Part shown: piece by piece, positions 5,510 to 34,367 of the stretch
Layout: every line of letters starts with the position of its first letter
Position numbering within the stretch: position 1 is the stretch's first letter
NCBI GenBank assembly: GCA_027366635.1
Contig: DAHXNE010000088.1
Coordinates: 1 to 42,176 of the forward strand
Source of the DNA: Gammaproteobacteria bacterium
GTDB lineage: Bacteria > Pseudomonadota > Gammaproteobacteria > Steroidobacterales > Steroidobacteraceae
DNA: 42,176 nucleotides
Direction: 5' to 3'
Notes under the pieces: model-generated
What the model was told of the DNA's origin: nothing
The model's database searches: none
The model's input: only the letters and a program-made list of their open reading frames with translations
Position numbers and translations under genes: made by a program

Positions 5510-5669
5510 TTTCCACCCCATCTTCCCGGTCATCCGCAGGGATGGACCGTGGCTGTCAATGACTTGCTGCCGGGCTTCGCGGCGGCGTCGCGACCCCATC
5601 GGCAGGCGGAGGCGAGCGTGCCGGCATCGGCCCGCAGTCGAGACTCGCTCCGGCAAGCCTTCGGGAACG

Positions 5670-5698
5670 AGTCTAGATACACTTGACCAAGTAGTCAA
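5670..5698 (-). promoter_or_regulatory. Predicted sigma-70 promoter for deoB
   Basis: On the minus strand TTGACT (5698-5693) is followed after exactly 17 bases by TAGACT (5675-5670), a plausible -35/-10 pair upstream of deoB. The -35 hexamer lies inside the RutR-like palindrome at 5683-5698, so a bound repressor would block RNA polymerase. Predicted from spacing and sequence only. Confidence 0.55.
5683..5698. promoter_or_regulatory. RutR-type operator before deoB
   Basis: TTGACCAAGTAGTCAA matches the described E. coli RutR consensus TTGACCA-NN-TGGTCAA at all but one defined position (A for G at position 11). It overlaps the -35 element of the predicted deoB promoter and resembles four other sites in this window. 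Confidence 0.75.
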
Positions 5699-6144
5699 AG
5701 CGGGGCCGCGCGCGCCCGAAGATCGGTGGGCCGCGGCAACGCTTGCGACGCACGATCCGGCGGCGATGGCAACGGCAAGAGGTCGGCGGACGCGCGAGCG
5801 GCACTCAAAACATAACGGAACGAGCCCGCGGCGGTTGCACCGGGAGAGGGCGGTTACGGTGGGCGCGCACCGCAATGGGGCGATCCGGTGCGCGGTTTAC
5901 TCGAGCGTGTCGCAGCACGTTAAGATGCGGGTCGCGCGCCGGGTGCCAGCCGCCGGACCGCGAAAGTTCACTGACGGGAAAACTCCAATGATCGCGACAG
6001 AATGTGACCGGAACGTGACGGCGCGGATTGCGCTGGCGCGCGCGTCGCTGCCGAGAGGGCGGTGAGCGTTGGCCGCGTTGGTGCCGGCGCAGTCATGGGT
6101 GGGTCGGCCCGAGCTGAGTGGCCGAAATCAAACGGCGCGGTCCG

Positions 6145-6173
6145 TTGACTTCAATGCCGTGCTTCGATACCGT
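6145..6173 (+). promoter_or_regulatory. Predicted promoter for deoC
   Basis: TTGACT (6145-6150), a 17-base spacer and TACCGT (6168-6173) form a candidate promoter. The RutR-like operator begins two bases after the -10 element, a classic repressor position over the transcription start. The -10 match is weak. Confidence 0.45.
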
Positions 6174-6175
6174 AT

Positions 6176-6191
6176 TTGACCAAGTGGTCCA
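6176..6191. promoter_or_regulatory. RutR-type operator before deoC
   Basis: TTGACCAAGTGGTCCA differs from the RutR consensus palindrome at one defined position (C at 15). It shares its first ten bases with the deoB operator, lies 41 bases upstream of the chosen deoC start, and directly follows the predicted -10 element. Confidence 0.75.
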
Positions 6192-6232
6192 CATGCGCGC
6201 AGCAGACGCAAGCCGGCCGCAACGGGTGTGAC

Positions 6233-7258
6233 ATGAATTCGACTGCCGGTTCTGATCCGAAGAGCGGATTTCCCAGATTGGTCGCCGAGCGGGCCAAGAC
6301 CGAGTCCGCGGTGCCGTGCTCGCGCGGGATTGAATTTGACGCGGGTTGGGTCGATCGCGTCCGGGTGAATCTCTCGGCCGTCGAGCGGCGTGTGGCCACG
6401 CTGGCCACGCGCCGCAGCGTCAAAAAGGTCTGGCAGTGCGCCTGGCTGCTCAAGGCGATCTCCCTGATGGACCTGACAACGCTGTCGGCCGATGACACCG
6501 CGGGTCGCGTGCTGCGCTTGTGCGCCAAGGCCCGCGCGCCGATCCGCCCGGAGCTGCTGCAGGCGTTGAACTGGGGCGAACGCCCGCTCACCACCGCGGC
6601 GGTCTGCGTCTATCACGAGATGGTTCCGGTGGCGCGCGCCGCCCTGGCGGGCACCTCGGTCGGCATTGCCGCGGTCTCAACCGGCTTTCCCGCTGGGCTG
6701 TCGCCCTTCGAGCTGCGACTCGAGGAGATTCGCCGCTCGGTCGAGGCCGGCGCGACCGAGATCGACGTGGTCATCAGCCGCCGCCACGTGTTGCTGTCGG
6801 ACTGGCGGGCGCTGTATGACGAGGTGCGGGCATTCCGCGCCGCGTGTGGGCCGGTCCACATGAAGACCATCCTCGGTACCGGCCAGCTGGGCTCGATCGG
6901 CAAGGTCGCCAAGGCGTCGCTCGTGGCTCTGATGGCGGGCTCGGATTTCATCAAGACGTCCACCGGGATGGAGCCGGTCAACGCCACGCTCCCGGTCAGC
7001 CTGGTCATGCTGCGCATGATCCGGGAATTCGCCGACCGGACCGGTCAGCAGGCCGGGTTCAAGCCGGCGGGCGGAATTTCCACCGCGAAGACTGCGCTCA
7101 CCTATCTGATGCTGGTGAAGGAGGAACTGGGCGAGCAATGGCTGGTGCCGGAGCGGTTCCGGTTCGGCGCCTCGAAGCTGCTCGGCGACATCGAGCGCCA
7201 GCTCGAGCACCAGATCACCGGGCGCTATTCGGCGGCCCACCGCCATCCCTTGAGCTAA
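6233..7258 (+). CDS. deoC: Deoxyribose-phosphate aldolase
   Basis: Class I aldolase that cleaves 2-deoxyribose-5-phosphate to glyceraldehyde-3-phosphate and acetaldehyde. The 341-residue product is the longer, eukaryote-like DERA form rather than the roughly 250-residue form, with about 70 extra N-terminal residues. The Schiff-base lysine is K241 in SDFIKTSTG, and the second catalytic lysine is K277 in GFKPAGGIST. The substrate-site segments EIDVVISR and HMKTILGTG are also present. I chose the ATG at 6233 rather than the TTG at 6176, because the latter lies inside the operator and would add an unrelated leader. It is followed 25 bases later by the aldehyde dehydrogenase gene, which probably removes the acetaldehyde. 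Likely repressed through the adjacent RutR-type site. Confidence 0.95.
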   Translation: MNSTAGSDPKSGFPRLVAERAKTESAVPCSRGIEFDAGWVDRVRVNLSAVERRVATLATRRSVKKVWQCAWLLKAISLMDLTTLSADDTAGRVLRLCAKARAPIRPELLQALNWGERPLTTAAVCVYHEMVPVARAALAGTSVGIAAVSTGFPAGLSPFELRLEEIRRSVEAGATEIDVVISRRHVLLSDWRALYDEVRAFRAACGPVHMKTILGTGQLGSIGKVAKASLVALMAGSDFIKTSTGMEPVNATLPVSLVMLRMIREFADRTGQQAGFKPAGGISTAKTALTYLMLVKEELGEQWLVPERFRFGASKLLGDIERQLEHQITGRYSAAHRHPLS

Positions 7259-7283
7259 CGATCGAACCAGGAGCGCGGACTCG

Positions 7284-9758
7284 ATGAGCAGCGTCCCGGA
7301 AATTTTTGACACGTTGAGTTACGGTCCGGCGCCGGAGGATGCCAGCGCCGTGCGCGCCTGGCTGGCGGCGCACGCCGGCGGATTCCAATTGTTCATCGGC
7401 GGGGAGTGGCGTCCGTCGCACCGCCAGGCGCCGCCCATCCCGTGCGTGAACCCGGCCAATGGCGAGGTGCTCTCGAGCATTACCCAGAGCTGCGCCGAAG
7501 ACCTTGATGCGGCCGTCGCGAGCGCCCAGGCGGCGTTTCCGTCGTGGTCGAAGTCCGGCTACGAGCGCTCGCGGGCCCTGTACGCGCTCGGGCGCCTCAT
7601 CCAGAAGCACAGCCGTTTCCTCGCGGTGCTCGAGTCGATGGACAACGGCAAGCCGATCCGCGAGACGCGCGACCTCGACATCCCGCTGGCGGCCCGGCAT
7701 TTCACCTATCACGCCGGATGGGCGCAGCTCGTGGCGCGCGAGCTTCCCGATCACGCGCCGCTCGGGGTGGTCGGACAGATCATCCCGTGGAATTTTCCGC
7801 TGTTGATGTTGGCCTGGAAGGTGGCGCCCGCATTGGCGGCCGGCAACTGCGTGGTGCTCAAGCCCGCCGAGGACACCAGCCTCACGGCGCTGTTCTTCGC
7901 CAGCCTGTGCGCCGATGCGGGCATTGCGCCCGGGGTCGTGAACATTCTGACCGGCGACGGCAGGGTGGGCGAGTTGATCGTGGGTCACGCGGGAATCGCC
8001 AAGATCGCCTTTACCGGCTCGACCGAGGTCGGCCGGAGCATCCGCCGCAGCACGGCCGGCACGGGTAAGTCGCTGACGCTCGAGCTCGGTGGCAAGTCGC
8101 CGTTCGTTGTCTTCGAGGACGCTGATCTGGACGCCGCCGTCGAAGGCCTGGTGGATGCAATCTGGTTCAACCAGGGCCAGGTGTGCTGCGCCGGATCACG
8201 CCTCATCGTCGAGGAAAGCGTCACCGGGACGCTGGTGAGCAAGATCAAGGCGAGGCTGAGTCACATCCGGATCGGCGATCCGCTGGACAAGGCCATTGAC
8301 ATGGGCGCACTGATCACCCCGACGCACTGCGCCAGGGTGCAGGGCTTCGTCGAGCAGGCCCAGGCCCAGGGCGCGACCGTGTGGCAGCCGCAGATTCCGC
8401 TGCCGCGCCAGGGTGCCTTCTACCCGCCGACGTTGCTCACTGACGTATCGACCGCAAACATCGTGTGGCGCGAGGAGATCTTCGGGCCGGTGCTGGTGGC
8501 GACCAGCTTTCGCACCCTGCAGGAGGCGGTGGAGCTGGCCAACAACACGCGGTACGGGCTGGCCGCCACGCTGTACACCGAGAACATCAACCGGGCGCTC
8601 GAGCTGGCCGTGAAACTCAAGGCGGGCGTGGTCTGGATCAATACCACCAATCAGCTGGATGCGGCCTGTGGGTTCGGCGGCATCCGCGAGAGCGGCTTCG
8701 GGCGCGAGGGCGGCCTGGAAGGCATGCTCGACTACCTGCACGAGCGCGATGCCTGGGGCGCGCCCATCGCGGCAGATGCGCCACCGAGTGAGGCGCGCCA
8801 ACCGCAGACGGCCGCAGCGTCGCTGGCGCGCTCCGGCCGGCAGTTGGCCGATTCGCTGTCGGCGCAAACCTCGCTGGTCGAGGCGGGTGCCGAGCCGCCG
8901 CACGGCCAGATCGACCGGACCTTCAAGCAGTTCATCGGCGGCAAGCAGACCCGCCCCGACGGTGGCCTGTCGAGCCCGATCAGCGACGCGCGCGGGCGCC
9001 TGGCGGGCTGGGTGGCGCGCGGCAACCGCAAGGATATCCGCGATGCGGTCGAGGCGGCGTTGCGCGCCGAGAAGTGGCGCGACGCGACCGCGCATCTGCG
9101 CAGTCAGATTCTGTTCTATATGGGGGAAAACCTCGCGGTGCGGCGCGACGAGTTGGTCAGGCGGCTCGGCCGGCTGGCCGGCTACAAACCCGCGCCGGCC
9201 CGCGCCGAGGTGGACGGGGCGATCGAGCGCCTGTTTACCTACGGCGGCTGGGCCGACAAATACGACGGCTTGATTCATCCCCCGCCGGTGCGCAACATCG
9301 CGCTCGCGGTTCCCGAGCCGATCGGTATCATCGGGGTCGTCTGTCCCGACGAGGCGCCGCTCCTTGCCTTCGTGTCGCTGCTTGCGCCGGTGCTCGCCAT
9401 GGGCAATCGCTGCGTGATCGTCCCTTCCGAGCGCATGCCGCTGCCGGCAATGGATCTGTGCCAGGTGCTGGAGATCTCCGATGTGCCCGCGGGCGTCGTG
9501 AACATCGTGACGGGCGATCGGGACGAGCTCACCGAGACGCTGGCGCAGCACGACCAGGTCGACTGTGTATGGTACTTCGGAACGAAGGCCGGGAGCGCGC
9601 AGGTGGAGGCATGGTCCGCGGCGACGATCAAGCGCACGTGGGTCAATCACGGCCGCGCCCGCGACTGGCGGTCCGTGCGGCATGGCGAAGGCCGCGCCTT
9701 TCTGCGCCAGGCGACCCAGATCAAGAACATATGGCTACCCTACGGCGATTTTGCATGA
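7284..9758 (+). CDS. Two-domain aldehyde dehydrogenase, ALDH16 type
   Basis: An 824-residue NAD(P)-dependent aldehyde dehydrogenase made of two tandem ALDH folds. The N-terminal unit (about residues 30-490) is complete: the cofactor segment IIPWNFPLLM, FTGSTEVG, the general-base glutamate E267 in LELGGKSP, and the nucleophile C301 in NQGQVCCAGSR. The C-terminal unit (about residues 540-824) keeps the fold signatures (GNRCVIVPSERMPLP, GVVNIVTGDRDEL) but lacks both the ELGGK motif and the catalytic cysteine, so it is probably structural, as in ALDH16 proteins. A GGAG Shine-Dalgarno precedes the ATG. Its position just after deoC suggests it oxidises the acetaldehyde released by DeoC; the substrate is inferred. 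Confidence 0.9.
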   Translation: MSSVPEIFDTLSYGPAPEDASAVRAWLAAHAGGFQLFIGGEWRPSHRQAPPIPCVNPANGEVLSSITQSCAEDLDAAVASAQAAFPSWSKSGYERSRALYALGRLIQKHSRFLAVLESMDNGKPIRETRDLDIPLAARHFTYHAGWAQLVARELPDHAPLGVVGQIIPWNFPLLMLAWKVAPALAAGNCVVLKPAEDTSLTALFFASLCADAGIAPGVVNILTGDGRVGELIVGHAGIAKIAFTGSTEVGRSIRRSTAGTGKSLTLELGGKSPFVVFEDADLDAAVEGLVDAIWFNQGQVCCAGSRLIVEESVTGTLVSKIKARLSHIRIGDPLDKAIDMGALITPTHCARVQGFVEQAQAQGATVWQPQIPLPRQGAFYPPTLLTDVSTANIVWREEIFGPVLVATSFRTLQEAVELANNTRYGLAATLYTENINRALELAVKLKAGVVWINTTNQLDAACGFGGIRESGFGREGGLEGMLDYLHERDAWGAPIAADAPPSEARQPQTAAASLARSGRQLADSLSAQTSLVEAGAEPPHGQIDRTFKQFIGGKQTRPDGGLSSPISDARGRLAGWVARGNRKDIRDAVEAALRAEKWRDATAHLRSQILFYMGENLAVRRDELVRRLGRLAGYKPAPARAEVDGAIERLFTYGGWADKYDGLIHPPPVRNIALAVPEPIGIIGVVCPDEAPLLAFVSLLAPVLAMGNRCVIVPSERMPLPAMDLCQVLEISDVPAGVVNIVTGDRDELTETLAQHDQVDCVWYFGTKAGSAQVEAWSAATIKRTWVNHGRARDWRSVRHGEGRAFLRQATQIKNIWLPYGDFA

Positions 9759-9828
9759 GTCGTGGGCTGGTCGGCGACTGCGCAGGATCCGGCGGGCGCT
9801 CCGGTGGATCCGCGTGCGGCTCTCGGCA

Positions 9829-9844
9829 TTGACCGCATGGTCAA
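9829..9844. promoter_or_regulatory. RutR-type operator upstream of the TonB receptor operon
   Basis: TTGACCGCATGGTCAA is a perfect 6+6 palindrome (TTGACC-N4-GGTCAA) and differs from the RutR consensus at a single position (G for A at 7). It lies 70 bases after the aldehyde dehydrogenase gene and about 130 bases before the predicted promoter of the TonB receptor. No clear promoter overlaps it. Confidence 0.7.
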
Positions 9845-9957
9845 ACGGGGGCGCTGGAGCGCGTCGGCAACGGTGTGCCGTCGCTGATGCGGGGCCTGCG
9901 CATGGCTGTTGCGGGTGCGCAACGGTTGTATTTTGTCATGAAATCCTGGTCTGTCTG

Positions 9958-9986
9958 TTGACATGTGGTTCTGACGCATATATCGT
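9958..9986 (+). promoter_or_regulatory. Predicted promoter for the TonB receptor operon
   Basis: A consensus -35 hexamer TTGACA (9958-9963) is followed after 17 bases by TATCGT (9981-9986). The local sequence is clearly AT-richer than its surroundings. Transcription from here would give a leader of roughly 330 bases before the receptor start codon at 10324. Confidence 0.6.
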
Positions 9987-10007
9987 TTAACTGTAGTGCG
10001 TTAAACG
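9984..10007. promoter_or_regulatory. Perfect dyad over the receptor promoter
   Basis: CGTTTAAC-N8-GTTAAACG, two perfect 8-base arms, overlaps the -10 element and the expected start of transcription. It looks like an operator for a dimeric regulator. One arm plus flank (TATATCGTTTAAC, 9979-9991) recurs in inverted orientation before cdd at 28859-28871. The cognate protein is unknown. Confidence 0.5.
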
Positions 10008-10323
10008 TTTTAGATTTCGAGTCGGCGCGTTGCTTCCGGGCGCGGATGGTTCCAGAAGCAAGGTGTTGCGTACGGGGGAAGTCAAGTGCGGAACGCAATC
10101 TCGCCGCGCATCTGGCGCGGCGCCCGATCTGAGCTGCGACCCGGGGTCATTTGGGGGCCAAATGACGTGCCGCGTGTCATCGTTCTGCAATCTTCGCCGG
10201 CTATTTTCAATCGTTTCAATCGCGACTCTGAATTGCAGCGATCGGCTCAGCGCGGCCTGCCGATCGCATCCTTTTGTTTGTTTGGCACGGCCGTATCGTG
10301 ACCCGATGCAGGAGAGTCCTCTA
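9987..10323 (+). other. Long structured 5' leader of the TonB receptor mRNA
   Basis: About 330 bases with no convincing gene. It contains a perfect 9-base inverted repeat at 10146-10166 (arms GTCATTTGG and CCAAATGAC around GGG) and a second perfect 9-base stem at 10238-10267 followed by a T-rich run. The layout, structured RNA then a terminator-like hairpin then a start codon about 40 bases later, is that of a transcription-attenuation leader or riboswitch. No known riboswitch class was recognised. Confidence 0.45.
10238..10283 (+). terminator. Candidate attenuator hairpin in the receptor leader
   Basis: GCGATCGGC (10238-10246) pairs perfectly with GCCGATCGC (10259-10267) around a 12-base loop. 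TTTTGTTTGTTT follows at 10272-10283 after a four-base gap. This resembles an intrinsic terminator with an interrupted T-tract and ends 40 bases before the receptor ATG, so it would act as an attenuator. Confidence 0.45.
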
Positions 10324-12759
10324 ATGTCCAGTGAGATCCGTAAGGTGGTCCGACAGATCATCGCTCCAATGGCGGCTATCGTCCCGTGCGTGGCGCTGAT
10401 GGCGGCGGCGCCGGCCTTTGCGGCGCCGCAATCCGCGGGCCACAGCAGTTCCAGCAGTCAGGCGTCGGCCGCGGCAGGCCCCGCCGATCCCCCGCCGAGC
10501 AACGCCATTGCGGCGCCCGCACCCAGTCAATTGCAGCGGGTGCTCATCGTCGGGGCGGAAAAGGCGATAGCGACCGTGAGCGCCCAGAAATTCCAGCACG
10601 TCAGCCCGTCCGCAAGCGTCGTGTCGGTGTTGAACAACGTCCCGGGATTCAATGCGCGCACCTTGGGTGTCGGCGGCTTCGTCGTCAGCGACACCGCGTT
10701 CACCCTGGACGGTTTCCCGAGCTCGGAGCTCGGCACGACCTTCGACGGCATACCGGATATCAACACGTTCCTCGGCGGCTTTTTCGGCAATGGCGACCAG
10801 CCGATCGGGCAGCCGCTGGTCGCGATGGACGTCGCCGGCGCGCATGTGTACAGCGGCGCGAGCACGCAAGCGGACTCGTCGATCGATGACCTCGGCGGCA
10901 CCGTTGCATTCGTGCCGGCCATGCCGGCCAAGCACTTCGGCGTGCGGCTGGGTGTGACCGGCGGGGTGTATCAGGGTGGCGGCACGGAGATGGTCGATCA
11001 CATCTCGGTCAATTCCGGCGCCATCAAGTCACTGCACGGCATGCGGATCGTGGCGAAGTACCAGCGCACGCGCGTCAACGGGCCGTGGAGCAACGTCGAC
11101 GAGCACATGAATTCGTTCTACTTCGCGGCCTTGCAGCCCACTTCCTCCGGGCACGTCAAGCTGGTCGCGCTGGTGAACGCGGCCAACGGCAACACGCCGA
11201 GCTATGTGGCGGCGCCGATCATCGCCAAGTATGGCTACGACTATAACTTCCCGATGAACGTTTCCTTCCAGAATCAGGAAACGCAATCCACGTTCGTGGC
11301 GCTGTCGGCGAAGTCGCTGTTGAATCCCATGATGATCGGCGACGTCAAGGCCTTCTACGTCGGCACGAACAATGACCGGACCGCGTGGGCCAATCCGGCC
11401 TACGCGAACGGGTATGAGGGCTACAGCGACCTCAACGTGACATTCAAGCACTGCAGCGACCTCAACGCGTTTCTGAGCGCGGCGCCGTATCCGGAGAACT
11501 ATAATTGCGCGGTGGCCACGAGCCAGTTTGGATCGCCGGCGGCAGGCACGGCCTATCAGCGCTACATTCAGAATTACGCCGAGATGGGCGCGATGGGGCA
11601 TTTGACCTTCCTGCTGCCGGACAACACGGTGCAGGTGGGCGCGTCCGGCTTCGATGCGCCGAATTTGTCGACCGAGTCGTGGTACGGCTCCTGGCCGGTG
11701 CCGGCGGAGCAGACGGGCTACAATGCGGCCTGGCTGGAGCATGACGGGCAGACGTGGATGCAGGCCTATGCGCAGGACAACATCCGGCTGCTGGGTGGGA
11801 AACTGCACATTTATCCCGGCGTCAAGTACACCCGGATGGATATGTTCTCGAACGACGACCAGGGATATTTTTACGATTTCTCCGGCTCGGTCACCAAGAT
11901 CTATCACTACATCGAGGACTCGATCGGCGTGAACTATTCGTTTACGCCGGAGCTGAATGCCTACGTCAACTGGGGTCAGTCGACCAAGCCGCCGGACGTC
12001 AGCGCGCTGTACGGCAACATCGGCTCCTCGCAGGAGCCCGGAGCGGTGGTCGTGAAGCCCGAGAAGGTCGACAACATCGATGTCGGCGTCCGGTTCAAGG
12101 GTCCGCGCTACTACTGGGACGTGGCGTTCTATAACCGCGACTTCACCAATATCTTCAGCTCGACCTACAACAGCATCAGCGGCATCACCTTGACGACCAA
12201 TGCGGGCACCGCGACCTCGCGGGGCTTCACGGTCGGTGGCGGCGTGGACCTGCCGGATCATTTCCAATTGGAAGCGAACGGGGGCTATACGCATTTTGTT
12301 TATACGGAGGACTTCTGCAGTGTCGGGTGCAATCCGCAGGATCCGTCAGCAGGAGGGTTCTTCACCAATGGCATGTGGCGGCCGAATATTCCGGTCGAAA
12401 CCGGCAACCTCGAGCTCGACTACAGCCATGGCCCGTGGTACGGCAGCGTGCAAGAGCACTACACCGGCTCGGAATACCTGTCCAATTACTTCACCGGGGT
12501 CACGACCAACCAGCAGCTTGGCGGTTATGGAACCTTGAACCTGACAGGCTCCTACCGGTTCGCGGTGCATAGCCCGATGCTGAAGTCGCTGAAGCTGGAG
12601 GTGCATATCGATAATGCCCTCAACCGGCACTCGCCGTTCTATTCACCCGGGTTCGAGCCGCACAGTGTGGCCGATGGCAACCCGGGCGCGCCGTTCACGT
12701 GGGAGATCTACAACACGCCGATGTTTGCGAGTCTGACCTTGACCGCGGATCTGTATTGA
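10324..12759 (+). CDS. TonB-dependent outer-membrane receptor, possible nucleoside/nucleotide uptake
   Basis: An 811-residue TonB-dependent receptor. The ATG at 10324 follows AGGAGAG and opens a Sec signal peptide ending near AFA at residue 33. A longer frame back to 10030 has no signal. The plug domain spans roughly residues 70-220 (VSVLNNVPGFNARTLG..., DDLGGTVAFVP), and the rest is an alternating beta-barrel ending in ...LTLTADLY. It forms an operon with the phosphoesterase lipoprotein (2-base gap), deoA and a base transporter, and sits among deo and pyrimidine-degradation genes. I therefore infer a nucleoside, nucleotide or oligonucleotide ligand, but the sequence alone does not show it. 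Control probably involves the RutR-type site at 9829, the dyad at 9984 and the leader hairpins. Confidence 0.88.
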   Translation: MSSEIRKVVRQIIAPMAAIVPCVALMAAAPAFAAPQSAGHSSSSSQASAAAGPADPPPSNAIAAPAPSQLQRVLIVGAEKAIATVSAQKFQHVSPSASVVSVLNNVPGFNARTLGVGGFVVSDTAFTLDGFPSSELGTTFDGIPDINTFLGGFFGNGDQPIGQPLVAMDVAGAHVYSGASTQADSSIDDLGGTVAFVPAMPAKHFGVRLGVTGGVYQGGGTEMVDHISVNSGAIKSLHGMRIVAKYQRTRVNGPWSNVDEHMNSFYFAALQPTSSGHVKLVALVNAANGNTPSYVAAPIIAKYGYDYNFPMNVSFQNQETQSTFVALSAKSLLNPMMIGDVKAFYVGTNNDRTAWANPAYANGYEGYSDLNVTFKHCSDLNAFLSAAPYPENYNCAVATSQFGSPAAGTAYQRYIQNYAEMGAMGHLTFLLPDNTVQVGASGFDAPNLSTESWYGSWPVPAEQTGYNAAWLEHDGQTWMQAYAQDNIRLLGGKLHIYPGVKYTRMDMFSNDDQGYFYDFSGSVTKIYHYIEDSIGVNYSFTPELNAYVNWGQSTKPPDVSALYGNIGSSQEPGAVVVKPEKVDNIDVGVRFKGPRYYWDVAFYNRDFTNIFSSTYNSISGITLTTNAGTATSRGFTVGGGVDLPDHFQLEANGGYTHFVYTEDFCSVGCNPQDPSAGGFFTNGMWRPNIPVETGNLELDYSHGPWYGSVQEHYTGSEYLSNYFTGVTTNQQLGGYGTLNLTGSYRFAVHSPMLKSLKLEVHIDNALNRHSPFYSPGFEPHSVADGNPGAPFTWEIYNTPMFASLTLTADLY

Positions 12760-12761
12760 TC

Positions 12762-15539: not shown

Positions 15540-15589
15540 GGGACGAGGCGCATCCCGGCCATGAGCCGGGCACAGCGGGAAATCGGGCC

Positions 15590-16912
15590 GTGATATTCAA
15601 GAATCTCATTCGCAAGAAGCGCGATGGGTCGGCGCTGACGCCGGAGGAAATCGAGTTCTTCGTGCGCGGGCTCGCCGACACGTCGATTCCGGCCGAGCAG
15701 GTGGCGGCGCTCGCCATGGCGGTGTACTTCCGGGGCATGAGCTTCGCCGAGTCGGGTGCGCTCACGGTCGCCATGGCCCGCTCCGGCGTGCGGTTGCGCT
15801 GGGACGAGCTGCGCGACCGGGGTCCGGTGATCGACAAACATTCGACCGGTGGGGTCGGGGACAAGGTGAGTTTCCTGCTGGCCCCGATCGCCGCCGCCTG
15901 TGGTTGCTTCGTGCCGATGATCTCCGGACGGGGCCTCGGGCACACCGGTGGAACGCTCGACAAGCTCGATGCCGTTCCCGGCTATCGCTCCATGCCCACC
16001 GTGGAGGAATTGCGCGCCGTGGTCGGCAGCGCCGGCTGCGCCATCATCGGTCAGACCGACCAGTTGGCGCCCGCGGACCGGCGGTTGTACGCGATCCGCG
16101 ACGTGACCGCCACGGTGGAGTCCATCCCGCTGATCACCGCCTCGATTCTCTCGAAGAAGATCGCGGCGGGACTGGATGCGCTGGTGATGGACGTCAAGAC
16201 CGGTTCGGGCGCGTTCATGGAAACGTTGGAGGAGGCGCGGGCTCTTTCCCGCAGCATCATCGGCGTGGCGGGCGAAGCCGGCCTGAAAACCCATGCCGTG
16301 ATCACCGACATGTCACAGACGCTCGGCTCCAGTGTCGGCAATGCGCTGGAGATCGCCGAATCGATCGCATTTCTCGCCGGCGAAGCGCGCGAGCCGCGCT
16401 TGGCGGAGGTGGTCTTCACGCTGTCGGCCGAGATGCTCGTCATGGGAGCGGTGACCGGGAGCCATGCGCAGGCCCGCCAGCGGGTCGAAGCGGCGGTGCA
16501 CTCGGGAGAGGCTGCCGAGCGGTTCGCGCGGATGGTCGCCGAGCTCGGCGGCCCCGCCGATCTGCTGACGCGCGCGCCGCGCTACCTGCCGAAGGCGCCG
16601 CGGGTGGAACCGGTGTTCGCGCTCGAGGAGGGCTACATCGCCAGTGTCGATGCGCGCGCCGTGGGCAACGTGCTGGTGGAGTTGGGTGGCGGTCGCAAGG
16701 TCGCGGGGCAGAAACTCGATCTGGCCGTGGGCCTGACCGACGTGGCCGGAATCGGCGCCCGGGTCGGCAAGGAGCGGCCGCTCGCGATGGTGCATGCCCG
16801 GTCCGCCGAGCAGGTGCGGCAGACGGCGGAGGCGCTGCGCGCGGCCGTCACATTGTGCGATCAGCCGGTTTCGCCGCCGCCGATCGTCCACGAAATCCTG
16901 GTGAAGGTCTGA
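15590..16912 (+). CDS. deoA: Thymidine (pyrimidine-nucleoside) phosphorylase
   Basis: Phosphorolyses thymidine or deoxyuridine to the free base and 2-deoxyribose-1-phosphate, feeding DeoB and the Pre pathway. The 440-residue product closely resembles E. coli DeoA. It starts IFKNLIRKKRDG, has the phosphate-binding motif DKHSTGGVGDKVS (K83-T86), the family signature SGRGLGHTGGTLDKLD, base-site residues in YAIRDVTATVESIPL, and LVMDVKTGSGAFM. The start is a GTG; no in-frame ATG lies nearby. It follows the phosphoesterase gene by 50 bases and precedes the base transporter. No separate uridine phosphorylase is present in the window, so DeoA may serve several pyrimidine nucleosides. Confidence 0.95.
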   Translation: MIFKNLIRKKRDGSALTPEEIEFFVRGLADTSIPAEQVAALAMAVYFRGMSFAESGALTVAMARSGVRLRWDELRDRGPVIDKHSTGGVGDKVSFLLAPIAAACGCFVPMISGRGLGHTGGTLDKLDAVPGYRSMPTVEELRAVVGSAGCAIIGQTDQLAPADRRLYAIRDVTATVESIPLITASILSKKIAAGLDALVMDVKTGSGAFMETLEEARALSRSIIGVAGEAGLKTHAVITDMSQTLGSSVGNALEIAESIAFLAGEAREPRLAEVVFTLSAEMLVMGAVTGSHAQARQRVEAAVHSGEAAERFARMVAELGGPADLLTRAPRYLPKAPRVEPVFALEEGYIASVDARAVGNVLVELGGGRKVAGQKLDLAVGLTDVAGIGARVGKERPLAMVHARSAEQVRQTAEALRAAVTLCDQPVSPPPIVHEILVKV

Positions 16913-17052
16913 TTCATCGCCGCGCGTTCAGCATCGCGGCACAGCCGGCTCGCCGCAGATCTCGACGGGTTGGAGCGGGGCGCGGACCGAGCAGCCCCGC
17001 CGCGCCGGGTGAGCGTCGGGGCCGGGGCGCGCCTGGGGCGTAATATCAGCGT

Positions 17053-18552: not shown

Positions 18553-18670
18553 GGCGCGACTGCGCGGCGGGTCCGCGTGTCCCGGTGCGCGGCCTGAGGA
18601 TCGGCGCCGCGGCGAGCGCGGGCCGCAACGGCGGTGTTACGTGGGTGCGCGGCGCGGCGCCGACAGTCAA

Positions 18671-18686
18671 TTGACCAAATGGTCAA
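18671..18686. promoter_or_regulatory. RutR operator, perfect consensus, before preT
   Basis: TTGACCAAATGGTCAA matches the published E. coli RutR consensus at every defined position and is a perfect 7+7 palindrome. It lies 46 bases upstream of the preT start in an intergenic region, and the operon it heads encodes a RutR-like protein as its third gene. Confidence 0.88.
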
Positions 18687-18699
18687 AAGTGGGCATGCT
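18671..18699 (+). promoter_or_regulatory. Predicted promoter of the pre operon
   Basis: TTGACC (18671-18676), 17 bases, then CATGCT (18694-18699) form a plausible promoter for preT and downstream genes. The -35 is the left arm of the perfect RutR-type palindrome, so repression by occlusion is expected. The -10 is moderate. Confidence 0.55.
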
Positions 18700-18732
18700 G
18701 CGAAATCTGTAGTGCAGATGGTGGAGAGTGCG

Positions 18733-20097
18733 ATGAGTGAGGAGCATCGAGCGGATATCCGTCCGGGCCGTCTGGCCCCGCAAGCGTATGCCGCTCGCTT
18801 CGCGGATCACGTTCCGCCGTTGACGGAGGCGCAGGCCCTGCTCGAGGCGAACCGCTGCCTGTATTGCTACGACGCGCCGTGCATGCAGGCCTGTCCGACG
18901 CGCATCGACGTGCCGTCGTTCATCCGGCGCATCGCCGAGGGCAACGTGCGCGGCGCGGCCGAATCGATCCTGGTGTCCAATCCCCTCGGCGGGCTGTGCG
19001 CGCGCGACTGCCCCACCGAGGTGTTGTGCGAGCAGGTCTGTGTGCGCAACATCCAGCAGGGCCAGCCGGTGGCGATCGGCCGGCTGCAGCGCTACGCGGT
19101 CGACGGGCTGCTATCCGGTGCGCACCAACCGGTGTTCCTGCGCGCGCCGGCCACCGGCCGGCGGGTGGCGGTGGTGGGCGCGGGACCGGCCGGCCTCGCC
19201 TGCGCACACGCGCTGGCCCGCGCCGGCCACTCGGTGGTGTTGTTCGACGCCAAGCCCAAGGCCGGCGGCCTGAACGAGTACGGTATCGCCGCCTACAAGG
19301 TCGCCGGCGGCTACGCGCAGCGCGAGGTGCAATGGTTGCTCGAGATCGGCGGGATCGAGCTGCGCTGCGGTTGGCGGCTCTCGAGCGCCGAGCAGCTCGC
19401 GGCGCTGCGCCGCGAGTACGCCGCGGTGTTCCTGGGAGTGGGACTGGCGGGCACGTACCGGCTGGGGATTCCCGGCGAGGCGCTCGCGGGCGTGCTCGAC
19501 GCGGTCGAGTTCATCAGTGAACTGCGGCAGACGCCGGACCTGGCGACGTTGCCCGTGGGCCGGCGCGTCGTGGTGATCGGCGGCGGCATGACCGCCATCG
19601 ATGCGGCCGTGCAATCGAAGTTGCTCGGTGCGGAAAGCTCCACCATCGTGTACCGTCGCGGCGCCGAGCAGATGCCCGCCTCGCGCAAGGAGCAGGATCT
19701 GGCGCAGATCCATGGCGTGCGCATCCTGCACTGGCTCGCGCCCGTGGAGGTGCTCGGCGAGGGCAGCGTGCGCGGCGTGCGCTTCGCCCGCCAGCGGCTC
19801 GAAGCCGGGCGGCTGGTGCCGGCGGGCGAGGAGCTGACGGTCGAGGCCGACATGGTGCTCAAGGCGATCGGTCAGCGACTGGACGCCAGCGTGCTGTCCG
19901 AGTGCGGGCTGGCGCAACAGGGCGGGCGCATCGCGGTCGATGAGTCCGGCCGGACCAGTGTCGCGAATGTCTGGGCCGGCGGCGATTGCGTCGCCGACGG
20001 CGACGATTTGACGGTTTATGCCGTCGCCCATGGCTTGCGCGCCGCGCACGACATGGATGCGCAGCTGCGCAACGGTCCGGCGCGTGCCGACGGCTGA
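18733..20097 (+). CDS. preT: Dihydropyrimidine dehydrogenase subunit PreT (FAD/Fe-S)
   Basis: Electron-input subunit of the NAD(P)H-dependent dihydropyrimidine dehydrogenase, which reduces uracil and thymine. The 454-residue product begins with a glutamate-synthase-small-subunit-like region carrying two cysteine clusters: CLYCYDAPCMQACP from C42, and CARDCPTEVLCEQVC. The FAD-binding VVGAGPAGLACAHALARAG follows, and the NAD(P)H-binding VVVIGGGMTAIDAA comes later. AGGDCVADGDDLTVYAVAHG near the C-terminus closes the flavin site. I chose the ATG at 18733 because GGAGAG lies just upstream; an ATG at 18718 would add five residues. preA follows after 14 bases. Confidence 0.93.
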   Translation: MSEEHRADIRPGRLAPQAYAARFADHVPPLTEAQALLEANRCLYCYDAPCMQACPTRIDVPSFIRRIAEGNVRGAAESILVSNPLGGLCARDCPTEVLCEQVCVRNIQQGQPVAIGRLQRYAVDGLLSGAHQPVFLRAPATGRRVAVVGAGPAGLACAHALARAGHSVVLFDAKPKAGGLNEYGIAAYKVAGGYAQREVQWLLEIGGIELRCGWRLSSAEQLAALRREYAAVFLGVGLAGTYRLGIPGEALAGVLDAVEFISELRQTPDLATLPVGRRVVVIGGGMTAIDAAVQSKLLGAESSTIVYRRGAEQMPASRKEQDLAQIHGVRILHWLAPVEVLGEGSVRGVRFARQRLEAGRLVPAGEELTVEADMVLKAIGQRLDASVLSECGLAQQGGRIAVDESGRTSVANVWAGGDCVADGDDLTVYAVAHGLRAAHDMDAQLRNGPARADG

Positions 20098-20111
20098 TCC
20101 GGGAGAATTCC

Positions 20112-21419
20112 ATGGCGCAATTGGACATTGATTTCTGCGGTATCCGCAGTCCCAATCCGTTCTGGCTGGCGTCCGCGCCGCCAACCGACAAGGCCTACAA
20201 CGTGGAGCGCGCCTTCGAGGCCGGCTGGGGCGGAGTGGTATGGAAGACATTGGCGGAGGCCGGGCCGCCGGTGGTGAACGTGAACGGCCCGCGCTACGGG
20301 GCGCTGCTCGCCGTGGACCGCAGCCTCATCGGCTTCAACAACATCGAGCTGATCACCGATCGGGAGCTCGAGATCAACCTGGAGGAAATCCGCGCGGTCA
20401 AGCGCCGCTGGCCCGACCGGGCCGTGATCGCCTCGATCATGGTGCCGTGCAAGGAGGAGTCCTGGAAGGCGATCCTGCCGCGTGTCGAGGACACCGGCTG
20501 TGACGGCATCGAGCTGAATTTCGGCTGTCCGCACGGCATGAGCGAGCGTGGCATGGGCGCGGCGGTCGGCCAGGTTCCCGAGTACATCGAGATGGTCACC
20601 GCGTGGTGCAAGCATTACTCGCGGTTGCCCGTGATCGTGAAGCTGACACCCAACGTGACGAATATCCGCATGCCGGCGCGCGCGGCCAAGGCCGGTGGCG
20701 CCGATGCGGTATCGCTGATCAATACGATCAATTCGATCATGGGCGTCGATCCGCAGACCCTGACGATGAGCCCGGCGGTCGGGGATCAGGGCACGCACGG
20801 CGGGTATTGCGGGCCGGCGGTCAAGCCGATCGCGCTGCACATGGTGGCGGAAATCGCCCGCGACCCCGACACCGCCGGACTGCCGATCTCCGGGATCGGC
20901 GGCATCGGCAGCTGGCGCGATGCACTCGATTTCATCGCGCTCGGGGCCGGGTCGGTGCAGGTCTGCACGGCCGCGATGGTGTTCGGGTTCAAGATCGTCC
21001 AGGAGATGATCAATGGACTGGCCGGATACCTCGACAGTAAGGGCTTCTCGAGCGTCGCGCAGCTGCGCGGCCGGGCGATCGGCAGCGTCACGGACTGGCA
21101 GTTCCTCGACCTGAACCGGGTGTCCAAAGCGCTGATCAATCAGGACACGTGCATCCAGTGCGGCCGCTGTCACATCGCGTGCGAGGACACCGCGCACCAG
21201 GCGATCACGGCACAGCGCGACGGACGGCGGCATTTCGAAGTGAAGGAAGAGGAGTGCGTCGGCTGCAATCTGTGCGTCAACGTCTGTCCGGTGCCCGGCT
21301 GCATCACCATGCGTGAGCTGGCCCCGGGGGAGATCGACCGGCGCACGGGCCGCAGGGCGAGCGAGACTCGGCTGCAATGGACGGCGCATCCGAACAATCC
21401 GCTGCGGAGCGGCGCCTGA
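20112..21419 (+). CDS. preA: Dihydropyrimidine dehydrogenase catalytic subunit PreA
   Basis: FMN-containing subunit that reduces uracil or thymine to the 5,6-dihydro form, using electrons relayed from PreT. The 435-residue product has a DHOD-like barrel: SPNPFWLASAPPTD, NFGCPHGMSERGMGAAVGQ, KLTPNVTNI, INTINSIMG and PISGIGGIGSW. Two C-terminal 4Fe-4S clusters follow (CIQCGRCHIAC from C347, then CVGCNLCVNVCPVPGC). A good GGGAGAA site precedes the ATG. In the active-site loop the position that is the general-acid cysteine in mammalian enzyme (GLACGQ) is valine here (V152), so the proton donor may differ. Its stop overlaps the rutR start (TGATG). Confidence 0.93.
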   Translation: MAQLDIDFCGIRSPNPFWLASAPPTDKAYNVERAFEAGWGGVVWKTLAEAGPPVVNVNGPRYGALLAVDRSLIGFNNIELITDRELEINLEEIRAVKRRWPDRAVIASIMVPCKEESWKAILPRVEDTGCDGIELNFGCPHGMSERGMGAAVGQVPEYIEMVTAWCKHYSRLPVIVKLTPNVTNIRMPARAAKAGGADAVSLINTINSIMGVDPQTLTMSPAVGDQGTHGGYCGPAVKPIALHMVAEIARDPDTAGLPISGIGGIGSWRDALDFIALGAGSVQVCTAAMVFGFKIVQEMINGLAGYLDSKGFSSVAQLRGRAIGSVTDWQFLDLNRVSKALINQDTCIQCGRCHIACEDTAHQAITAQRDGRRHFEVKEEECVGCNLCVNVCPVPGCITMRELAPGEIDRRTGRRASETRLQWTAHPNNPLRSGA

Positions 21420-22171
21420 TGGCCGCGCGGCGATCGAGCCCGCCGGCGCGTCGCTCCGGAGCCGGACCGCGTCCGAGCGGCCGCAAGGCACAGGGGCGCG
21501 GCGGCCCGCGCCCAGGCGCGGGCGGCTCGGGCCGGAGTCTGCCGCGCGGCAATCGCGAAGCCCAGGAGAAGGCCATCGTCGAGGCGGCCGAGCGGGTCTT
21601 TGCCGGCGCGGGCTTCGGCGGCGCCACGATGGCCGAGATCGCCACGGCGGCGGGCCTGCCCAAGCCCAATCTGCATTACTATTTCGGCAGCAAGCGGGCG
21701 CTGTACCGCGCGGTGCTGGAGCGCACGCTGCGGGAGTGGCTCGAGCCGGCCGACTGCATCGTCGCCAAGGCGGACCCGCGCGAGGCGCTCGAGGGCTACA
21801 TCCGCGAGAAGATGCGCCTGTCGTTCACCTGCCCCTATGCCTCCCGGGTGTGGGCCAATGAGCTGCTGCACGGCGCGCCAGAGCTGCGCACGACGCTGGT
21901 GCGTACCCTGCGTCCGCTCGTGCGCCGCAAAGCCGCCGTGCTCGACCGATGGATCGCCGAGGGCCGCATGGCGGCGCTCGACAGCAAGCAGCTGTTCTTC
22001 ACGATCTGGGCCGCTACGCAGACGTACGCCGATTTTGCGGTGCAGATCTGCGCCGTGCTCGGCGTCGAGAAGCTCGATCAGAGGGCGCAGGAGCGTGCCA
22101 CGGAGCACGTCGTCGGGCTGATCCTGCGTGGCTGCGGACTCGCGGGGACCCGTTCCAGCCGACGCAAATGA
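21419..22171 (+). CDS. rutR: TetR-family repressor RutR
   Basis: TetR-family regulator, the likely uracil-sensing repressor of this cluster. After an Arg/Gly/Ala-rich N-terminal extension of about 45 residues comes the helix-turn-helix (AIVEAAERVFAGAGFGGATM, then AEIATAAGLPKPNLHYYFGS), followed by a ligand domain whose landmarks match RutR: REWLEPAD, YIREKMRLS, NELLHGAPEL, FFTIWAATQTYADFA. The 250-residue length exceeds the roughly 212 residues of E. coli RutR because of that extension. I chose the ATG at 21419: it overlaps the preA stop (TGATG) and has a GGAG site upstream; an ATG 14 codons earlier would overlap preA more. The palindromes matching the RutR consensus in this window support the identification independently. 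Confidence 0.88.
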   Translation: MAARRSSPPARRSGAGPRPSGRKAQGRGGPRPGAGGSGRSLPRGNREAQEKAIVEAAERVFAGAGFGGATMAEIATAAGLPKPNLHYYFGSKRALYRAVLERTLREWLEPADCIVAKADPREALEGYIREKMRLSFTCPYASRVWANELLHGAPELRTTLVRTLRPLVRRKAAVLDRWIAEGRMAALDSKQLFFTIWAATQTYADFAVQICAVLGVEKLDQRAQERATEHVVGLILRGCGLAGTRSSRRK

Positions 22172-22178
22172 GTTTGCG
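22163..22178. repeat. Short dyad across the rutR stop codon
   Basis: CGCAAA-TGAG-TTTGCG is a perfect 6+6 inverted repeat covering the rutR stop codon and 70 bases before the aminotransferase start. It could be an RNA hairpin affecting the rutR/aminotransferase ratio or a binding site. No T-run follows. Confidence 0.3.
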
Positions 22179-22248
22179 CACTTTGTGATCTGAAATGAAT
22201 CGTCGATCTGTCATTCTGGGCGTAGTCTGAATGTCTGGAGCGCAAATC

Positions 22249-23607: not shown

Positions 23608-23612
23608 AATCC

Positions 23613-25157: not shown

Positions 25158-25243
25158 GGGATGAGTGCGGGCGCGGGCGGTGGTGCGCGCATGATCGGCG
25201 CGGGCTCGATCCGTGGAGGCTGGTGAATATTGCGCGGAGGTGA

Positions 25244-26692
<1,449 letters not shown>

Positions 26693-26782
26693 CCGTTACA
26701 AACCTATGGCCCGCTCCGACGGCGCGTCTGCGCGCGGCGGCCGGGCCGTGTCGCAAAAGTATTCAAGTCCGGGAGACAGACG

Positions 26783-27649
26783 ATGGCAAAGATGCGTGGG
26801 GGTCTGATACAGGTTGGGTTGAAGGCGGACACGAGCGACTCGCCGGCGAAGATCCGTGATGCGATGCTGGCGGCCCACCGCCCGCTGATCGAGAAAGCCG
26901 GGCGCGGCGGCGTGCAGGTGCTGTGCTTCCAGGAGGTGTTCACCCAGCCGTATTTCTGTCCCAGCCAGGACGTGAAGTGGTACGCGGCCGCGGAGTCGAT
27001 CCCGGGGCCGACCACCGAGGAGATGCAGGCCGCGGCGAAGAAGCACCAGATGGTCATCGTGGTGCCGATCTACGAGGCCGATCCGGTGGCCGGCGTCTAT
27101 TACAACACCGCGGCGGTGATCGACGCCGACGGCAGCTATCTCGGCAAGTATCGCAAGACCCACATTCCGCAGGTGGCGGGCTTCTGGGAGAAATTCTTCT
27201 TCAAGCCCGGCGCCTCGCGCTGGCCGGTGTTCCAGACACGCTATTGCAAGCTCGGCGTCTACATCTGCTACGACCGCCACTTCCCGGAGGGCTGGCGCGC
27301 CCTGGCGCTGAACGGCGCGCAATACATCGTCAATCCGTCGGCGACGGTCGCCGGTCTGTCGGAGTACCTGTGGAAGCTCGAGCAGCCGGCGGCCGCGGCC
27401 GCCAACGGCTGCTGGATCGGCGCGATCAACCGCGTGGGCCGCGAGCAGCCGTGGAACATCGGGGAGTTCTACGGCCAGAGCTATTTCGTCAATCCGCGCG
27501 GCCAGATCGAGGCGATCGCCAGCCGCGACAGCGACGAGCTGCTGGTGCACGACATGGATATGGACATGGTCACCGAGGTCAGGAATCTGTGGCAGTTTTT
27601 TCGCGACCGTCGGCCGGATGCCTACGGTCGCTTGACCGACGCCGAGTAG
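26783..27649 (+). CDS. Beta-ureidopropionase (N-carbamoyl-beta-alanine amidohydrolase), nitrilase superfamily
   Basis: Hydrolyses N-carbamoyl-beta-alanine to beta-alanine, CO2 and ammonia, the step between dihydropyrimidinase and the aminotransferase. The 288-residue product belongs to the carbon-nitrogen hydrolase family. The triad is visible as E51 (CFQEVF), K125 (KYRKTHIP) and C162 (YICYDRHFPEG). NPSATVAGLSEYLWKLEQPAAAAANG and INRVGREQPWNIGEFYGQS are close to known ureidopropionases. GGGAGA precedes the ATG. It is the last gene of the plus-strand pre operon; 78 bases separate it from the convergent LysR gene, where I see GC-rich repeats but no clear terminator. Agmatine or other amidase activity is less likely given context. 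Confidence 0.92.
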   Translation: MAKMRGGLIQVGLKADTSDSPAKIRDAMLAAHRPLIEKAGRGGVQVLCFQEVFTQPYFCPSQDVKWYAAAESIPGPTTEEMQAAAKKHQMVIVVPIYEADPVAGVYYNTAAVIDADGSYLGKYRKTHIPQVAGFWEKFFFKPGASRWPVFQTRYCKLGVYICYDRHFPEGWRALALNGAQYIVNPSATVAGLSEYLWKLEQPAAAAANGCWIGAINRVGREQPWNIGEFYGQSYFVNPRGQIEAIASRDSDELLVHDMDMDMVTEVRNLWQFFRDRRPDAYGRLTDAE

Positions 27650-27726
27650 CGCAGCTGCGCGGCGCGCCCGGCCCGGAGCGCGGCGATGCGCCGGCACGGG
27701 TCCGCCGCCGCGCGGCCACGGGCCGC

Positions 27727-28656
27727 TCAACCGCTCCAGCGGGTCGCCAACAGGCAGTTGAGGAACACCTGCGCCACGCGCAGCGGCGGCGGTGTCTTGC
27801 GGTGGATCGCCGAATAGCGGCACTGGTACCGCAGGCCGGCCGGATGCACGGCGCGCAGCCGCTCATCGGCCACGAACGGGGCGGCGTAGTGGGCCGGCAG
27901 GAAGCCGACGAAGCGCCCGGAGAGGATCAGATGCGCGATGCCTTCCTGGTCGGAGGCGGTCGCGCTGCAGGTCAGGGCGTGCTCGCGGGCGAGTTCCATG
28001 TTGGGTGAATGATAGTCGAGTCCCGCCAGCGGCTGACCGGCCAGATCGCTCCAATCCCGCGTGGCATCGGCGCTTGCGAACCAGGGATGGTCGTGCGCGG
28101 CGTACAGCAGCATGGTCTCGTCGAACAACTCGTGATAGGCGAGGCGCTCGGAGCGGCGATGCTCCGGGATCAGTCCGAGGTGGAACTGACCGTCCATGAT
28201 GCCTTTCTCGATCGCCGTGATGTTGTTGACGTGCAGATGCAGCGTCACGGCGGGCGCGATCTGGGTGAATTTCGCCAACGCGCCGGTGATGCGCGCATGC
28301 GGATTGGTGACGGTCTTCTCGAACAGCGCCAGGTGCAGCGTGCCCTCGAGTTCCCGGCCGGTATCGAGCACCTCGGTGCGGAACGCATCGACGGCGCGCA
28401 GCAGCTGTTGGGCGGCGGCATAGACGCGTTCGCCGTCGGGCGTCAGCGCGAATCCTGAGCGGCCGCGCCGGCACAGCACCAGGCCCAGGCGTGTCTCGAG
28501 GTCCTTGACGTGCCGGGTGACGGTCGAGATGTCGATGTTGAGCTTCAACTCCGCGGCCGCGATGCCGCCGCAATCGGCCACCGCGCAGAAAATGCGTACC
28601 AGACGCAAGTCCACGTCGCCGATCTGGCCCAGTAGTGCGCGCTCGCGTAGTGACAT
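27727..28656 (-). CDS. LysR-family transcriptional regulator
   Basis: A 309-residue LysR-type regulator. The start MSLRERALLGQIGDVDLRLVRIF was chosen because it fits the family; an ATG at 28719 would add 21 unrelated residues. The winged helix-turn-helix covers residues about 16-75 (FCAVADCGGIAAAELKL, ISTVTRHVKDLETRLG, LCRRGRSGFALTPDGERVY). The effector domain follows to the C-terminus (NITAIEKGIMDGQFHLGLIPEH). It is divergent from cdd and convergent with the ureidopropionase gene, so it probably responds to a pyrimidine-pathway metabolite and controls cdd, the pre operon or itself; this is inferred. A RutR-like dyad covers its start codon, which would make it part of the same regulatory circuit. 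Confidence 0.88.
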   Translation of the reverse strand: MSLRERALLGQIGDVDLRLVRIFCAVADCGGIAAAELKLNIDISTVTRHVKDLETRLGLVLCRRGRSGFALTPDGERVYAAAQQLLRAVDAFRTEVLDTGRELEGTLHLALFEKTVTNPHARITGALAKFTQIAPAVTLHLHVNNITAIEKGIMDGQFHLGLIPEHRRSERLAYHELFDETMLLYAAHDHPWFASADATRDWSDLAGQPLAGLDYHSPNMELAREHALTCSATASDQEGIAHLILSGRFVGFLPAHYAAPFVADERLRAVHPAGLRYQCRYSAIHRKTPPPLRVAQVFLNCLLATRWSG

Positions 28657-28670
28657 GACCGTCGGGTCAA
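28655..28670. promoter_or_regulatory. Weak RutR-like dyad over the LysR start codon
   Basis: ATGACCGTCGGGTCAA keeps the TGACC-N4-GGTCA core of the other operators but has three deviations from the full consensus (positions 1, 7 and 10). It overlaps the LysR start codon, so binding could block LysR expression. It could be chance. Confidence 0.4.
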
Positions 28671-28858: not shown

Positions 28859-28871
28859 GTTAAACGATATA
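28859..28871 (+). promoter_or_regulatory. GTTAAACGATATA element before cdd
   Basis: This 13-base AT-rich element, 37 bases upstream of cdd, is an exact inverted copy of 9979-9991 at the TonB receptor promoter. Here only one half of that site's dyad is present. It may contain the cdd -10 region (GATATA) or a shared regulator half-site. Confidence 0.35.
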
Positions 28872-34329: not shown

Positions 34330-34367
34330 CGAGCCGAGCGGTGGCGTAGCGGAGCGTTGCGTGCCGG

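Follow-up and report, generated by a model that had tools for sequence, protein, structure and literature searches.

How far does the reach of a base-sensing regulator extend in pyrimidine catabolism? The deo genes, which serve the deoxyribose side of this metabolism, are a textbook example of regulation through sugar-phosphate and nucleoside signals. The question is raised by a stretch of 42,176 nucleotides (the window) from a Gammaproteobacteria bacterium of the family Steroidobacteraceae (GenBank assembly GCA_027366635.1, contig DAHXNE010000088.1, our contig C46), in which deoB, deoC and deoA lie together with the pre operon, a TonB-dependent receptor gene and a homologue of the regulator gene rutR. 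An initial annotation had proposed that one set of RutR-type palindromes links the deo genes, the pre operon and the receptor into a self-contained regulon. From the genes, the sites, their positions and their conservation, we consider it likely that the pre operon, deoB and deoC share a single set of RutR-type operators, and predict that RutR controls all of them. This part of the proposal stands, with sites conserved at every orthologous place examined; the part concerning the receptor does not hold in the same way, its site being matched in 7 of 12 genomes and lying off the likely promoter.

A shared palindrome in the window

Sequence inspection and a scan of the whole assembly (3.03 Mb, 86.6% complete, 1.4% of it in the window) both confirmed four palindromes with at most one change from TTGACC-N4-GGTCAA where they had been annotated. 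Given without strand, these are TTGACCAAGTAGTCAA before deoB (5683..5698, one mismatch), TTGACCAAGTGGTCCA before deoC (6176..6191, one mismatch), TTGACCGCATGGTCAA after the aldehyde dehydrogenase (ALDH) gene and about 490 bp before the TonB receptor (9829..9844, no mismatch), and TTGACCAAATGGTCAA before preT (18671..18686, no mismatch). The last agrees with what we take to be the Escherichia coli RutR consensus, TTGACCANNTGGTCAA. Only two copies of the exact palindrome exist in the assembly, those at 9829 and 18671 in the window. Allowing one mismatch there are nine sites, five of them in the window (5683, 6176, 9829, 18671 and 28655), an enrichment with a binomial P of 6e-8, or 4.5e-6 if four of the nine are counted. 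The pattern read backwards, as a control, gave no exact and three one-mismatch matches in the whole assembly, and with up to three mismatches the window holds 26 matches against a shuffle mean of 11.7.

The fifth site (28655..28670, one mismatch) marks the end of the interval described in the initial annotation, where it was not discussed. It falls within the 5' part of lysR, and as an operator of cdd it was rejected, a counterpart being found at one of nine orthologous places; it is probably a chance match. The four one-mismatch sites outside the window were likewise rejected as a sign of a wider regulon. All lie inside open frames of 163-773 residues, a weak argument since long frames are common on both strands of this DNA, and one of them, TTGAGCAGCAGGTCAA, recurs in at least six other genomes among the matches listed, as a coding stretch would.

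Conservation within the genus and promoter context

In a sample of 58 genomes of the genus, the thresholds used gave 12 genomes with RutR, 20 with the receptor family and 22 with DeoC. A single rule was applied to the loci of this sample: at most one mismatch within the stated flank, with 179 palindromes from shuffled half-sites as controls. The deoC box is kept in 10/10 loci (control mean 0.01, maximum 1) and the preT box in 11/11, ten of them exact (control mean 0.0, maximum 0). All ten deoB loci have a box as well (control mean 0.02, maximum 3); eight have their own, and in G032 and G080, where the intergenic region is short, one site stands before both deoC and deoB. Conservation of the deo sites in relatives, which the initial annotation had named as a check on its proposal, is thus borne out. 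The other half of the DeoC-bearing genomes, 11 of 22, have a deoC that is only distantly related (identity of the best piece 59-65% in ten genomes and 41% in the other) and give no RutR hit; no box precedes deoC in any of these 11, the best match within 400 bp having at least four mismatches.

The two deo boxes lie on or beside promoter-like elements, so that a bound repressor would be expected to block transcription. For deoB, a consensus scan returned one promoter-like pair, TTGACT-17-TAGACT (5670..5698, minus strand; shuffle mean 0.1), whose -35 element is inside the box. For deoC, the pair TTGACT-17-TACCGT (6145..6173, plus strand) was recognized by eye from the alignment, is not returned by the consensus scan, and directly precedes the box. 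Across the aligned deoB-deoC intergenic regions, 234 to 798 bp long, both boxes stand out as conserved islands in poorly conserved DNA.

Resemblance of the half-site to a -35 hexamer, one of which the deoB box contains, leads to the reading that the palindromes are chance matches or -35 sequences (TTGACC) that merely look like operators. We judge this very improbable: both halves are conserved, the two exact sites of the genome are both in the window, scrambled controls fail, and the deoC box lies after the -10 element.

Two further gaps were inspected. As to autoregulation, the interval between preA and rutR holds a site in 0/9 genus loci, but rutR may be read from the preT promoter. No site precedes the first NCS1 permease gene either (0/6 genus loci).

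The RutR homologue

As annotated, rutR lies inside the cluster (21503..22171, plus strand, start uncertain). The encoded protein matches TIGR03613 with an E-value of 1e-50 and is the only strong match of the genome; the next TetR-family protein is far weaker (E 7.5e-10). Its alignment to E. coli RutR spans 192 residues and has no gaps. Passages of a study on E. coli RutR name W77, Y97, W167, Q171 and Q179 as uracil contacts, together with K52 (PMC10891134). All five contacts and K52 are identical in the window protein, in 30/30 RutR rows from the searched distant genomes and in 20 further rows where these are complete (one is cut off); they are also kept in the RutR of G080 (L041), one of 11 rows aligned from the genus. 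The recognition helix reads PKPNLHYY here and SKTNLLYY in E. coli. Two helix types can be distinguished among the homologues, PKPNLHYY as in the window and SKPNLLYY in most Rhodobacterales copies, and some Rhodobacteraceae genomes carry two RutR copies with different helices, of the PK-N-HYY and SKPN-LYY types.

Sites before deoC in distant genomes

Beyond the genus, we scanned named genomes with DeoC, taking the best 80 of 571 confirmed candidates. Seven are close relatives, metagenome-assembled genomes (MAGs) labelled Gammaproteobacteria, Proteobacteria or Steroidobacteraceae, and 73 are distant, mostly Alphaproteobacteria. Within 300 bp upstream of the distant deoC genes the box is exact in 9/73, has at most one mismatch in 15/73 and at most two in 20/73, against means of 0.0, 0.05 and 0.81 and maxima of 0, 4 and 9 for the 179 control palindromes. 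Nine exact sites lie upstream of deoC and none elsewhere in the 1.25 Mb of these loci, and at one mismatch 15 lie upstream of deoC and 10 elsewhere. Carriers include Boseongicola aestuarii, two Phaeobacter (in the form TTGTCC), a Roseicyclus MAG and Rhodobacteraceae MAGs, as well as Kordiimonas laminariae, K. marina and a Robiginitomaculum MAG.

RutR was searched (TIGR03613, E at most 1e-25) in 50 of the 73 distant-deoC genomes, 48 of which enter the comparison. Homologues occur in 17/17 site-bearing and 23/31 site-lacking genomes (one-sided Fisher P 0.021), where the 31 were chosen by hand, not at random. The site-bearing set consists of the 15 genomes whose site has one mismatch or none and, from those with two mismatches, of L082 and L088 but not L093, L102 and L139. 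L077 and L118, which have RutR, were left out of the comparison. Twelve of the 17 site-bearing genomes have a further site, again with one mismatch at most, next to rutR, pre, hydA or aptA genes, which ties the motif to RutR in those genomes. Such a site lies a few kb from rutR in G084, G087 and G095, and none is present in the stretch taken from G096 and G097.

Among 30 short loci around rutR, 19 have a site with at most one mismatch. In a Kangiellaceae MAG, one near site lies some 300 bp upstream of deoA, and a second precedes a group of genes for a nucleoside transporter, cytidine deaminase and RutR. In two of three Emcibacter-like loci (L150 and L157) rutR diverges from deoA, and the gap between them holds TTTACC-N4-GGTAAA, one copy with an N in the spacer. 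At two changes from the box, this palindrome is possibly an altered RutR operator.

A number of results weigh against a link between RutR and the deo genes. No site precedes deoA in the genus (0/8 loci). The window protein, at 173 bits, falls below the curated TIGR03613 cut-off of 368, which is passed by 0/50 other genomes and by one of 14 control genomes. No site with at most one mismatch precedes 58 of the 73 distant deoC genes, and most of the genomes tested among these have RutR; 11 of the 30 short rutR loci are also without one. Finally, G068 (95% complete), with sites at deoB and deoC, and G008, with one at preT, give no RutR hit. The contigs of both end before the usual position of rutR, which makes loss through assembly possible. 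TetR operators can resemble one another, so G068 might also be read as a sign that a different TetR protein with a similar operator controls deo. This we find unlikely, as the sole strong TIGR03613 match is the gene of the cluster itself, the same palindrome stands at preT, an expected RutR target, and the deoC genes of the 11 congeners without a RutR hit are also without a site.

The TonB receptor and a second motif

The receptor (open frame 10030..12759, plus strand; Pfam TonB_dep_Rec_b-barrel) probably starts near 10324. Conservation of its site was named as a check in the initial annotation too, and here the outcome was poorer. A counterpart of site 9829, at a similar distance after the ALDH gene, occurs in 7/12 genomes including the genome itself, with at most one mismatch in five (G000, G004, G072, G007 and G068) and two mismatches in G018 and G029. 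The comparison takes in receptor loci other than those of G014, G023 and G066, and in G007 the region before the first of two receptors. No counterpart was found in G030, G067, G013, G012 and G032, where the best match has 4-5 mismatches; G030 and G067 retain the deoB, deoC and preT sites despite this, and the G032 receptor itself is only about 30% identical. In that genome (G007; L030, 569-8783) the TonB receptor gene is present twice, the copies being separated by a deoA-like piece, through either a local duplication or a fault of the assembly.

Site 9829 also appears not to lie on the likely promoter of the receptor. Downstream of it follow a terminator-like hairpin (9902-9929) and a separate promoter-like pair (9958-9986); the hairpin is a weak call, as the scan found two of them where shuffles gave 0.9 on average. 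The likely promoter, TTGACA-17-TATCGT, comes with two GTTAAACG elements (9958..10012, plus strand).

Is the receptor a RutR target nonetheless? The exact site and its counterparts at the same distance in the seven genomes speak for it, and so does an independent case: a gene that adjoins rutR and encodes an outer-membrane receptor-like protein (1116 or 1139 residues) has a one-mismatch site in front of it in Kordiimonas laminariae (L182) and in an Alphaproteobacteria MAG (L194). The pair has deoB nearby in both genomes, and deoA too in L182; in K. marina (L186) a site stands at a like place before a large frame. Against control through site 9829 count its absence from the five genomes named above, two of which keep the other three sites, its position ahead of the hairpin and the separate promoter-like pair, and the receptor loci of genomes without a RutR hit, none of which has a site (0/5). 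On balance we regard a role of RutR at the receptor as possible and rather doubtful.

In this genus, the separate promoter-like pair and the other motif that lies on it make a second regulator the likelier principal control of the receptor. Exact copies of GTTAAACGWTWTA number three in 3.03 Mb, all in the window: two at the receptor promoter (9979-9991 and 10000-10012) and one before cdd (28859-28871), with none for the reversed control. Upstream of the receptor, GTTAAACG or its complement was found at 15/17 loci, including 4/5 from genomes without a RutR hit. The genome encodes six LacI-type DNA-binding domains, none of them linked here to the GTTAAACG-type motif, and AAACGTTT is presumably LacI-like. 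A regulator, perhaps of LacI type, might thus act through the GTTAAACG elements on the receptor and, in some species, on cdd. We put the chances of this at about even, since before cdd the motif is exact in 2/9 loci only (altered in G072, not found in six), the element at the receptor also makes up a T-run hairpin and might work at the RNA level, and no LacI gene is among the annotated genes of the window. That the regions upstream of the receptor and of cdd share a different motif, found nowhere else in the assembly, renders the description of the regulon as self-contained doubtful.

Gene content and a proposed mechanism

The gene names given earlier for deoB, deoC, the TonB receptor and preT hold by NCBIfam and Pfam matches. 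The cluster begins with an NCS1 permease gene and deoB, both on the minus strand, followed by deoC, the double ALDH, the TonB receptor, a large protein with a phosphoesterase match and deoA; it continues with a second NCS1 permease, preT, preA, rutR, an omega-aminotransferase, a methylmalonate-semialdehyde dehydrogenase and a dihydropyrimidinase, and closes with a carbon-nitrogen hydrolase, probably a beta-ureidopropionase, lysR (minus strand) and cdd. The phosphopentomutase gene deoB (4295..5521, minus strand) matches its NCBIfam equivalog model over the cut-off. The following are on the plus strand: deoC, for deoxyribose-phosphate aldolase (6233..7258; Pfam DeoC); the ALDH (7284..9758; Pfam Aldedh, two stretches in one chain); deoA, for thymidine phosphorylase (15590..16912; Pfam pyrimidine nucleoside phosphorylase domains); preT (18697..20097), which combines Pfam Fer4_20, the iron-sulfur domain of dihydropyrimidine dehydrogenase, with Pyr_redox_2 and adjoins preA; and preA (20112..21419; NCBIfam PreA equivalog, over the cut-off).

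Some neighbours deserve a remark of their own. The double ALDH in one chain that follows deoC here adjoins deoC in most of the 73 distant loci too. The large protein downstream of the TonB receptor (12699-15539; PF04185) has the same place in several relatives and is possibly a secreted phosphatase feeding the receptor. As judged by eye, the stretch 31285-35455 holds a second, Oar-like TonB receptor frame and, after it, a frame that resembles a tryptophan halogenase and is broken into other frames.

Judged by its protein families, the cluster appears to encode nearly all of a pathway that leads from pyrimidine deoxynucleosides into central metabolism. DeoA would cleave the deoxynucleoside, DeoB and DeoC would break down the sugar phosphate, the double ALDH would probably take acetaldehyde onward, and PreTA with the downstream enzymes would degrade the base. 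Most probably, a RutR dimer sits on the palindromes and keeps the promoters of deoB, deoC and preT repressed. Uracil, perhaps also thymine, set free from the nucleoside would then release RutR, so that a base signal opens the base and sugar branches together. The genes, their sites and the kept ligand residues are what we observe; binding, repression, ligand and flux are what we infer from them.

For the wider picture we lean slightly towards RutR as a regulator of the whole of pyrimidine deoxynucleoside catabolism in many lineages, namely this genus, Rhodobacterales, Kordiimonas, the Robiginitomaculum MAG and the Kangiellaceae MAG, with the operator altered to TTTACC-N4-GGTAAA in two Emcibacter-like genomes. 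A free base would then signal that the sugar half is on offer too, and some lineages would have recruited outer-membrane or nucleoside uptake. A base-sensing repressor of this kind would open to experiment whether RutR, when it governs thymidine-catabolic genes, senses only uracil or also thymine, and would help to annotate uptake genes of lineages not yet in culture.

Comparison with known systems

The 16-bp palindrome TTGACC-N4-GGTCAA stands in exact form at a pyrimidine-catabolic promoter, that of preT, as in RutR regulons. The E. coli RutR regulon (rutA-G, rutR, carAB) is similar in its TetR-family regulator, its 16-bp palindrome and its ligand uracil, for which the five contact residues are kept here (PMC10891134, PMC6245113). 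Uracil, not thymine, is described as the physiological ligand in E. coli, contrary to an earlier report (PMC6245113). The neighbourhood differs: here RutR is accompanied by reductive pre/hyd and deo genes, not by rut genes (no search was made for rut genes or a carAB site).

Leyn et al. 2016 described mosaic RutR regulons in Proteobacteria, with 68 genomes in 13 groups, a mean of 10.9 target genes and taxon-specific changes of the motif (PMC5343134). Passages of that study name no deo gene or receptor under RutR, and overlap of our set with its target table is possible. The titles and abstract openings listed from the open-licence literature searched state no link between RutR and deo either, though the target table of PMC5343134 lies outside that search and RegPrecise may contain one. 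The combination of pre and deo would, judged from sequence, be a recurrent widening of the known RutR regulon.

The closest counterpart on the sugar side is the E. coli deoCABD operon, with genes for the same catabolic steps. That operon is under DeoR and CytR, and the signals are deoxyribose-5-phosphate and cytidine. As for a DeoR-type regulator, this genome, at the completeness of 86.6%, yields one marginal HTH_DeoR match, at 21.9 bits against a cut-off of 21, which falls outside the window in a frame of 616 residues. If the proposed link is true, a base-sensing repressor gating the deoxyribose branch would mean that the same pathway is wired differently, in a way that seems to have been recruited several times.

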